Shown here: piece by piece, positions 13,267 through 14,247 of the stretch
How the letters are laid out: every line of letters starts with the position of its first letter
How positions within the stretch are numbered: the first letter of the stretch is position 1
DNA from: Tomitella biformata AHU 1821
GTDB lineage: Bacteria > Actinomycetota > Actinomycetes > Mycobacteriales > Mycobacteriaceae
DNA: 64,000 nucleotides
NCBI RefSeq assembly: GCF_000524475.1
Contig: NZ_BAVQ01000072.1
Span: forward strand, 1-64,000
Direction of reading: 5' to 3'
The notes under the pieces: model-generated
Database searches by the model: none
Told to the model about the DNA's origin: nothing
The model's input: the letters and a program-made list of their open reading frames with translations, nothing else
Translations under genes and position numbers: made by a program

Positions 13267-13470
13267 CTATTTGTCCTGGGTTGCCGTCGGCGCCGCCTGG
13301 GCTGCCGACTCATGCACCGAGGGGCCGGTGGAGGCAGGGGACTTCCAGTTGTTCAGGAAGTTCGGCCAGATCGAAACGATGAACAGCAGTAGTGAGACCA
13401 AAATGGCCATCACAAGGGATCCCACAAGCACGACGGTGCCGACGCCGGACATAATGCTGGTCCAGTCCAT
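13267..13470 (-). CDS. small single-pass membrane protein, 67 aa
   Basis: From the ATG at 13468-13470, which has a perfect GGAGGT site 7 bases ahead, the product is 67 residues: a short polar start, one long hydrophobic segment (about residues 8-36, very rich in Val, Leu and Ile) and a Ser/Ala/Pro-rich tail after WPNFLNNWK. It has no cleavable signal and no lipobox. Function unknown; its size recalls small accessory or envelope proteins of mycolata, but it does not resemble PorA or PorH. Monocistronic. Confidence 0.65.
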   Translation of the reverse strand: MDWTSIMSGVGTVVLVGSLVMAILVSLLLFIVSIWPNFLNNWKSPASTGPSVHESAAQAAPTATQDK

Positions 13471-13555: not shown

Positions 13556-14089
13556 CTAGGTGGCGTTCAAGAGGTTGGCGGCGGAGACGAACGCGTTCAC
13601 GATCGAGTCGGTGCAGCTGGCACCCATCCCCATCGCCCAGTGCCGGCGGGCACCGTTGGTGCAATAGATGAAGGTCGCGGTCATCTCGCCGGCCTGCTGC
13701 TGGTGGAATGACGTGACCTCCATGGGGAAGCCGGCCTCGTGCAGCATCGCGGTCATCGCGGAGATCGGCCCGGCAGCATCCGCGCTTGCGTGACAGATGG
13801 TGCGCTCGATACCGAGGGTCGCGGAGTAGGTGGACTTCGCCGAGTTGATGCGCTGTTCGCTCCACGCCGACAGCCGCAGTGGGCCCGAGGATGGTGCATA
13901 GGCGGCCTCAAATGTGGGCCAGGACATCTGGGCGGCCTCGAGGCGGAGCTCGCGGGGCAGGGCCTTCCCGAAGCGCTGGGCGAACGGGTCGGCCGGACGT
14001 GCGGCGCGGCGGTCCTGGCCGGAGATCCGGGACGGGGCGGGGCACCGTGCGGCGATGGCCAAGGGGCTGGTGATGCTGGGAGAATTCAT
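13556..14089 (-). CDS. stand-alone LeuA regulatory (allosteric) domain protein
   Basis: 177 residues. The C-terminal part (about 90-177) resembles the leucine-binding dimerisation domain of 2-isopropylmalate synthase: a G-I-x-R strand, the A-A-G-P-I-S-A-M-T-A-M-L-H helix, a V-T-S-F-H-Q-Q strand and an A-T-F-I-Y strand. The catalytic TIM barrel is missing. Homologous small proteins are annotated in Rhodococcus/Gordonia-type genomes without known function. It may sense leucine or modulate LeuA; that is inference. Strong support comes from its leader: an apparent Leu/Val attenuator lies directly upstream (14090-14247). The ATG has GGAAGA about 10 bases ahead. Confidence 0.75.
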   Translation of the reverse strand: MNSPSITSPLAIAARCPAPSRISGQDRRAARPADPFAQRFGKALPRELRLEAAQMSWPTFEAAYAPSSGPLRLSAWSEQRINSAKSTYSATLGIERTICHASADAAGPISAMTAMLHEAGFPMEVTSFHQQQAGEMTATFIYCTNGARRHWAMGMGASCTDSIVNAFVSAANLLNAT

Positions 14090-14121
14090 GAGAAGCGGTC
14101 TTCCGTGATGTGAATCAGGGG

Positions 14122-14177
14122 GGACCGACTGGGTAGCTCAAAGACCCGCAGAGAGGGGTCGGTCCGAATCAGACCCC
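14122..14177 (-). promoter_or_regulatory. transcription attenuator with mutually exclusive stems
   Basis: On the minus strand, in order of transcription: segment A GGGGTC (14177-14172, the last two sense codons of the leader peptide), segment B GGACCGACCCC (14165-14155) and segment C GTCGGTCC (14129-14122). A pairs with GACCCC of B (6 bp); C pairs with GGACCGAC of B (8 bp). The two stems share 14158-14160 and cannot coexist. This is the arrangement of a ribosome-mediated attenuator: a ribosome stalled at the Leu/Val codons leaves A free to block the B:C stem. There is no U-run after C. Confidence 0.6.
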
Positions 14178-14210
14178 GCTGCGGCGGTGAACTACGAGAA
14201 GGCGCTTCAT
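14169..14210 (-). CDS. leader peptide with Leu-Leu-Val-Val control codons
   Basis: Thirteen codons: M-K-R-L-L-V-V-H-R-R-S-G-V then TGA. Four consecutive branched-chain amino acid codons (CTT CTC GTA GTT, 14190-14201) precede the alternative stems. A good promoter (TTGCCG-17-TAGTAT) puts the transcription start within 0-3 bases of the ATG, so the peptide would be read leaderless, as known for actinobacterial amino-acid leader peptides. Confidence 0.6.
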   Translation of the reverse strand: MKRLLVVHRRSGV

Positions 14211-14218
14211 GGCCGCCA

Positions 14219-14247
14219 ATACTACCGCCGATCCGCACTGTCGGCAA
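14219..14247 (-). promoter_or_regulatory. promoter of the leader peptide / LeuA-regulatory-domain gene
   Basis: On the minus strand TTGCCG (14247-14242) and TAGTAT (14224-14219) are separated by 17 bases. The predicted start at about 14212 is essentially the leader-peptide ATG at 14210. Confidence 0.6.

Follow-up and report, generated by a model that had tools for sequence, protein, structure and literature searches.

The window analysed here, a stretch of 64,000 nt from Tomitella biformata AHU 1821, carries on its minus strand a gene for a small protein that resembles the C-terminal linker and regulatory domain of 2-isopropylmalate synthase (LeuA). We refer to this protein as the orphan. Its gene is preceded by a promoter, by a short leader ORF and by an RNA segment with several helices (H1, the pseudoknot helix PK, P1 and P0), which are located as follows.

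14219..14247, minus strand: promoter, TTGCCG (14247-14242), 17 nt, TAGTAT (14224-14219), from the sequence
14169..14210, minus strand: leader ORF MKRLLVVHRRSGV plus TGA, 13 codons, with the sensor codons CTT CTC GTA GTT
14204..14208, minus strand: helix P0, 5' strand GAAGC at the transcript 5' end, from the minimum-energy fold
14188..14195, minus strand: helix P1, 5' strand GUAGUUCA, containing the Val codons, from the minimum-energy fold
14172..14184, minus strand: helix H1, 5' strand CCGCAGCGGGGUC, the codons for the peptide end, from RNAalifold
14158..14165, minus strand: helix PK, 5' strand GGACCGAC, in the H1 loop
14146..14160, minus strand: helix H1, 3' strand GACCCCUCUCUGCGG, from RNAalifold and the minimum-energy fold
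14133..14140, minus strand: helix P1, 3' strand UGAGCUAC, from the minimum-energy fold
14122..14129, minus strand: helix PK, 3' strand GUCGGUCC (DNA GTCGGTCC), also the putative anti-Shine-Dalgarno segment
14097..14104, minus strand: Shine-Dalgarno region GGAAGACC, predicted off-state partner of 14123-14126 and 14119-14120
14092..14096, minus strand: helix P0, 3' strand GCUUC, just before the gene start, from the minimum-energy fold
13556..14089, minus strand: gene for the stand-alone LeuA linker/regulatory-domain protein, 177 aa, by profile homology

An earlier note on this DNA had reported the promoter TTGCCG-17-TAGTAT and the leader ORF at 14210-14169, and both were confirmed when the minus strand was read again. 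The leader ATG at 14210 follows the TAGTAT box after 8 nt, and it is from this promoter spacing that we take the leader to be probably of the leaderless type, with a transcript start at or near the ATG. The leader ORF is separated from the orphan gene by 79 nt. A search for the leader core pattern found it once in the window and not at all in 100 shuffles; a chance origin of the leader is excluded because it is conserved across loci, as described below.

The same note had described the controlled gene as a stand-alone LeuA domain and not an enzyme, which is correct, as the 177 aa contain no catalytic domain; two full leuA genes of Tomitella lie on other contigs. The Pfam family LeuA_dimer (PF08502) matches with 19.6 bits, below its cut-off of 24.9, and the end of the 2-isopropylmalate synthase model matches at E 1.3e-6. 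A profile of the orphan family matches LeuA of M. tuberculosis (PDB 1sr9) at 2.5e-8 over residues 481-571 and again over residues 616-643. A tree was built from 20 orphans together with 16 LeuA C-termini; one of its branches (100/100) has all the orphans, which are long-branched, on one side. Judged by this homology, the orphan protein is derived from the C-terminus of LeuA.

The domain had further been called leucine-sensing. The orphan is homologous to the M. tuberculosis domain, but its leucine contacts are only partly kept and residues beside them are changed, so that sensing of leucine is at most putative. The leucine contacts of LeuA (taken from PMC2704214, in part) were followed in alignment A3. 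Besides the protein of the window, it contains 63 proteins out of a non-redundant set of 70 found by a leader pattern (seven were omitted). In the 64 orphans, the place of L535 holds Val, Ile, Leu or Met in 63, that of A536 holds Ala in 46, that of V551 holds Ile in 31, Met in 15 and Thr in 13, and that of Y554 holds Phe in 61; the place of A565 falls in a gap and that of A567 is mostly Thr, Val or Ile (Thr in 48/64). Glu, His-Gln and Thr replace A550, Y555-E556 and A569 in all 64 orphans, and in 28-29 of the 30 proteins of the profile A1 described below. As these altered residues lie at or next to the leucine site, we expect the ligand of the orphan to be changed or lost.

Three orphans from the same genus (L008, L010 and L011, 239-240 aa) have an N-terminal extension with the cysteine motifs CGC and PCTEC that is not present in the window protein. 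Directly downstream of the orphan gene, an ORF of 67 aa (13267-13470, minus strand), with GGAGG before its start, contains a hydrophobic stretch and possibly encodes a small membrane protein. No operon partner emerged from the gene neighbours of 12 loci, which were compared as unannotated ORF sequence: the mycobacterial loci L054, L059, L082 and L084 share a neighbour of some 500 aa, and the other neighbours differ between genera.

A protein search of 61 genomes (the own genome and others of the genus, family and order) gave matches in 45, many of them to full-length LeuA. The best 30 places were used; the open frame measures 157-272 aa at 29 of them and 531 aa at the remaining one (L022). The profile A1 was built from these 30 proteins. 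With A1, a short orphan frame was found at E <=7.5e-26 in 38 of the 42 sampled genomes of the own family, the four in which it was not found being G006, G033, G086 and G268. The orphan gene is therefore not an oddity of one genome. In the remaining 207 genomes of the order no match was better than 3.7e-21; among the matches listed for them the frames are LeuA-sized, apart from shorter ones in G067 (377 aa), G114 (166 aa) and G211 (152 aa). In a sample of the class, nine of 148 genomes match at E 1e-24, all nine from the own family; among the unmatched genomes listed, one (G086) belongs to that family. In the order and class samples, the orphan family thus occurs at no comparable score outside its own bacterial family. 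A tblastn search of plasmids and phages with the orphan protein gave no match.

Scanning species genomes with the leader pattern yielded at least 118 stretches; the 80 listed with a title come from Mycobacterium, Mycolicibacterium, Mycobacteroides, Nocardia, Rhodococcus, Rhodococcoides, Williamsia, Smaragdicoccus, Antrihabitans and two bins with less precise names, and 106 of the 118 listed have the orphan downstream according to an automatic test of length and HQ motif. As the pattern selects for CGTAGT, and some matches are the same loci as among the 30, these matches cannot prove the Val codons. No Rfam family was found at E up to 5, and a search for related loci with the single protein gave 157 stretches, none of which is a relative.

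Conservation of the leader was assessed on the 30 loci found by protein similarity, the Tomitella locus included. A recognisable leader with a -10-like hexamer is kept in 27 of them, on which the following counts are based; L022, L023 and L029 were dropped for want of a clearly recognisable leader start. All 27 loci have a TANNNT box 6-10 nt ahead of the start of the leader, and 25 have a TTG at -35, compared with 1.1% and 0.3%, respectively, of 8100 random places in the same loci. In the pattern-enriched set, a box is found 5-10 nt ahead of a start in 110 of 143 leaders; 21 of the 33 leaders without the box are named, 20 from Nocardia and one from Mycobacterium. That this is a conserved cis-regulatory leader we regard as near certain.

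The leader had been proposed to sense leucine and valine. Its constant part is the valine pair: Val-Val stands at the sensor place in 24 of the 27 unselected leaders and at least one Val in all of them, whereas Leu right before the first Val is less constant (23/27, and 114/142 in the pattern-enriched set). The sensor residues of Tomitella are LLVV; in M. gordonae, M. asiaticum and other mycobacteria the peptide ends in AVVASTRSGV, with a Val pair that has no adjoining Leu. Almost all leaders use GTA as their first Val codon; this codon is rare in ORFs of the window, accounting for 39 of 84 Val codons in the 27 leaders vs 3 of 170 in six window ORFs.

Further tests used a set of non-redundant elements, which numbered 56 after removal of L006 (no anchor), of four elements outside the length limits and of those with >90% identity, and 55 once L029 had been taken out. 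The spacing between the Val codons and H1 varies in length, yet the frame is kept in 53 of the 55. In three of the 27 leaders (L006, L014 and L018) a UAG stop lies within the first half of the H1 5' strand, so that a terminating ribosome would not reach GGACCGAC; this counts against the mechanism that we favour below.

Two stems had been described in the earlier note and their coordinates are exact: GGGGTC at 14177-14172 pairs with GACCCC at 14160-14155, and GGACCGAC at 14165-14158 with GTCGGTCC at 14129-14122 (minus strand). It is also true that the first stem is built on the last sense codons of the leader, as the 5' strand of H1 consists of the codons for the peptide end. The two stems had, however, been thought to be mutually exclusive, and this part we do not uphold. 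They overlap by only three bases (14160-14158) and need not exclude each other, since a pseudoknot in which the first stem is shortened a little can accommodate both. H1 then pairs the leader end with the segment behind the stop codon, and PK pairs the H1 loop with GUCGGUCC.

According to that note, its proposal could be checked on an alignment of related genomes and would be refuted if neither peptide nor stems were conserved in homologs; the peptide is kept in 27 of 30 loci, and H1 and PK covary. RNAalifold assigns 11 pairs to H1, four of which have changed on both sides with the pairing kept. In alignment A2 (51 rows, some chosen by the leader pattern, which are the 55 elements minus L020, L032, L105 and L142), 99.3% of the cells of H1 and PK are paired and five pairs have changed on both sides; none of 500 shuffles reached this level, and slid versions pair in 38-59%. 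For PK, 100% of the cells are paired in the six pairs counted, one of these pairs being AU in 29 rows, GC in 14 and GU in 7. To judge from A2, the rows of which are partly pattern-chosen, the leader RNA seems better conserved than the orphan protein, perhaps a sign that the RNA has an additional role. The orphan leader L023 (in G036) is very different in sequence and, by eye, appears to have kept H1 (CCCCGGTGGAGG/CCTCCACACGGGG) and PK (GGACTAAC/GTTGGTCC) by wholesale compensation.

When partners were swapped among the 55 elements the pairing energy worsened for P1 (z -7.0), for H1 (z -5.9) and for PK (z -7.0, with 0 of 5000 swaps as good as the cognate partners). Three comparisons in which no helix was expected gave z values of 0.1, -1.9 and -2.5, which show the noise that relatedness introduces into this test. 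P1 joins the Val codons to a segment that lies upstream of the PK 3' strand. It reached the set criterion in 36 of 55 cognate pairs vs 23.6 +/- 2.4 swapped ones, its strands being different elsewhere, e.g. GUAACAAC/GUUGUUAC and GUAGUAAG/CUUGCUAC. Covariation of P1 is thus seen in part, and its absence from 19 of the 55 elements counts against the favoured mechanism.

These data bear on the idea that the leader is a relic, left when a duplicate of leuA lost its catalytic part, which now serves mRNA stability or basal translation and senses nothing. Leader and protein do both resemble parts of leuA, and the branches of the orphan protein are long; against this stand the Val-Val pair at the sensor place of the 24 unselected leaders and the compensatory changes in H1 and PK, and we consider a mere relic very improbable.

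Kinship with the leaders of leuA emerged from a covariance model (R1) trained on the orphan leaders and searched against 61 genomes. It found at least 105 places in 51 of these genomes. Of these at least 105 places 18 were examined, and 16 precede leuA, often with Leu runs similar to MQRALLLGCRGGV (L196 was assigned to leuA from the position of its LeuA match); many of the other 87 listed coincide in place with orphans or LeuA from the protein search. R1 did not report the divergent leader of the orphan in G036. The other two of the 18 R1 matches examined, on C32 and C53 of the own genome (E 4.5e-4), look like chance and were rejected, as they have neither a leader with a Leu/Val run nor a LeuA-type gene. 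Because R1 finds leuA leaders in the same genomes, the orphan RNA is a relative of the LEU element, which precedes leuA in Actinobacteria and whose parts are a leader, a pseudoknot and, at its base, a stem with the Shine-Dalgarno box (Seliverstov et al. 2005, PMC1262725, in part). The proposal of an attenuator before the orphan gene is borne out as regards leader, sensor codons and alternative pairings, but it is a variant of the LEU element and not an isolated new attenuator.

Tomitella's own leaders fit into this picture. Those of its two leuA genes read as MQRVRLLGCRDGV and VSLSLLLLRRRCGA, and its ilvB leader has CTC GTA ATC and a T-rich, terminator-like stretch. Together with the R1 matches they indicate that the orphan leader combines an RNA plan of the leuA type with sensor codons resembling those of the ilvB leader. 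At L035 (G000:C90), L188, L192 and L200 the encoded LeuA has a diverged regulatory domain, and each has its own Leu-rich leader; the C90 protein resembles the orphan more closely (36% identity) than does the second LeuA of Tomitella.

For the LEU element of leuA a regulatory protein has been argued from leader mutations and the phylogenetic pattern (PMC1262725, in part), and the orphan RNA might likewise be a protein binding site, with the leader peptide of secondary importance. The high mean column identity of A2 (65%, DNA, rows partly pattern-chosen) vs that of A1 (31%, protein) would agree with this, as would the three of 27 leaders in which the peptide end is lost yet the RNA core kept. 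A binding site would, however, hardly account for a reading frame that is kept in 53 of 55 elements despite varying spacing, for the conserved start codon and promoter spacing of the leader, or for sensor codons that differ on one RNA plan, being Leu before leuA and Val before the orphan. We regard this explanation as improbable.

For the 124-nt transcript of Tomitella, folding is more favourable than for shuffled versions of it (z -3.1; 2 of 200 shuffles equally good), and the fold holds P0, P1, H1 and a Shine-Dalgarno hairpin simultaneously. Three pairings are thereby added to those of the earlier note: 14188-14195 with 14133-14140, 14204-14208 with 14092-14096, and 14123-14126 with 14097-14100 beside the Shine-Dalgarno bases. 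Folds of 43 elements have a mean z of -3.2 and contain P0 in 26 cases, P1 in 37, the Shine-Dalgarno hairpin in 32 and all three in 15. P0 was tested on the 43 of 56 elements with a found start. Cognate vs swapped partners gave z -4.3 in the 43 sequences; among the 13 most distant, z was -0.9 and thus without significance, which counts against the mechanism favoured below. A previous version of this test gave 37 of 56 vs 29.8 +/- 2.8 swapped.

When the 3' region was folded, 49 of the 55 elements had at least four of seven bases of GUCGGUCC paired to the 26 nt that immediately precede the gene. The complementarity of GUCGGUCC to the Shine-Dalgarno region has a z of -12 vs shuffled letters, but only -2.65 vs swapped partners, a weak cognate covariation that is no stronger than the unrelated comparison at -2.5 and counts against the favoured mechanism. 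The same applies to a simple folding test, in which imposing PK raised the mean exposure of the Shine-Dalgarno region only from 0.36 to 0.43 (exposure was higher in 36 of 55 elements, by >0.2 in 10). As exposure differs little between the states, our switch is argued from complementarity and not from computed accessibility.

The lack of a U-run, remarked on for Tomitella, proved general: a run of five or more T before the gene, as expected for an intrinsic terminator, is found in only 2 of 55 elements. Together with the predicted off-state pairing of the Shine-Dalgarno region, this scarcity fits translational control better than intrinsic termination. Premature transcription termination could also be the output if stalling or completion of the leader exposed or hid a site for Rho. 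Rho has been suggested for mycobacterial cys leaders (PMC1262725, in part), and the lineage seems to use transcriptional attenuation, given the T-rich stretch in the Tomitella ilvB leader. The missing T run in 53 of 55 elements speaks against termination, though Rho needs none, and the PK partner strand of GGACCGAC is predicted to pair with the Shine-Dalgarno region, so that we see Rho as a serious but rather unlikely alternative.

Our preferred mechanism is attenuation at the level of translation, governed by charged Val (and Leu) tRNA: the leader peptide and pseudoknot would form an RNA of the LEU-element kind, re-coded from Leu to Val (with Leu), that controls translation of the orphan protein. 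To this reading as a whole we assign a probability of roughly 0.6. It builds on the observed conservation, promoter spacing, reading frame and absent terminator, on the covariation of H1 and PK (of P1 in part), and on the homology to leuA leaders and LeuA. A response to branched-chain aminoacyl-tRNA is likely, as is Val, judged by the codons, over Leu as the main signal; a translational rather than transcriptional output is favoured.

From these features we infer the stalling amino acid, the level of control, the order of the switch and the target as follows. RNA polymerase would start at or near the leader ATG and a ribosome would begin immediately. If Val-tRNA (or Leu-tRNA) is scarce, the ribosome would stall on CUC GUA GUU, covering the 5' end of the transcript and the P1 strand and leaving GGACCGAC free. 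Free GGACCGAC would capture GUCGGUCC in the pseudoknot, which would keep both GUCGGUCC and the 5' end from pairing with the Shine-Dalgarno region and allow translation of the orphan gene. A ribosome that reaches the UGA would instead cover GGACCGAC, letting GUCGGUCC pair with GGAAGACC; once the 5' end is freed, P0, P1 and H1 would close the structure and the orphan gene would be off. Under this scheme the orphan protein would be made during a shortage of valine or leucine.

Expression of the small protein is thus probably induced by a lack of valine or leucine. Its most plausible field of action is the metabolism of branched-chain amino acids, with LeuA as the obvious partner. An effect on LeuA, as a trans-acting, diffusible regulator, is possible, but at present a guess. 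2-Ketoisovalerate is the common precursor of valine and leucine, and this branch point is known for the feedback of leucine on LeuA. One scenario, speculative and on balance doubtful, is that leuA was duplicated in the Mycobacteriaceae (in the wide sense), that leader and C-terminal domain were kept and the leader re-coded from Leu to Val, and that the free protein binds and throttles LeuA under valine shortage, so directing 2-ketoisovalerate to valine (and pantothenate) and not to leucine. If true, this would show an attenuator changing its amino-acid specificity within the same RNA frame, by swapped sensor codons, beside a truncated copy of the enzyme. The orphan locus offers a direct way to ask whether valine controls LeuA via a separate protein, and the orphan leaders provide many natural variants of the LEU element. 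We found no description of the orphan protein or its leader in the open-licence papers searched; the data point to a protein family present in 38 of 42 sampled genomes of the family, including mycobacteria, Nocardia and Rhodococcus.

Several known systems are comparable. IlvN is a separate small regulatory subunit for IlvB. The orphan is likewise a detached regulatory domain of a branched-chain enzyme, but is without a known partner and does not lie beside its presumed enzyme. With the C-terminal linker and regulatory domain of LeuA (1sr9) it shares homology over the regulatory domain, but differs in having no catalytic domain. The leaderless poly-cysteine short ORFs of mycobacteria also place a short ORF before a gene (PMC4633059, PMC13236596, both in part), and regulation of the cysteine genes in M. 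smegmatis has been called translation attenuation (PMC13236596, in part); their codons are for cysteine, and we liken them to the orphan leader by description only.

The attenuators of ilvB and ilvBNC are closer, having Leu-Val codons (LVVI in M. tuberculosis, leaderless MNIIRLVVITTRRLP in C. diphtheriae; PMC13236596, PMC5784534, both in part), and the sensor residues of the Tomitella ilvB leader (LVI) are similar as well. They differ in that the M. tuberculosis attenuator has an intrinsic terminator (same sources, in part) and the Tomitella ilvB leader its T-rich stretch, neither of which is present in the orphan leader. The LEU element shares the leader peptide, the pseudoknot and the absence of a terminator, and its stem between 5' codons and Shine-Dalgarno box (PMC1262725, in part) may have a counterpart in P0. 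P1 is a difference insofar as the part of that paper used here does not mention it. The mechanism of the LEU element was left open in 2005, and mutations in the S. coelicolor leuA leader gave results inconsistent with classical attenuation (PMC1262725, in part), which counts against the mechanism favoured here. What is new in the orphan system, compared with the LEU element, is the controlled gene, a stand-alone regulatory domain in place of leuA itself, and the sensor codons, in which the Leu run has given way to (Leu)-Val-Val.
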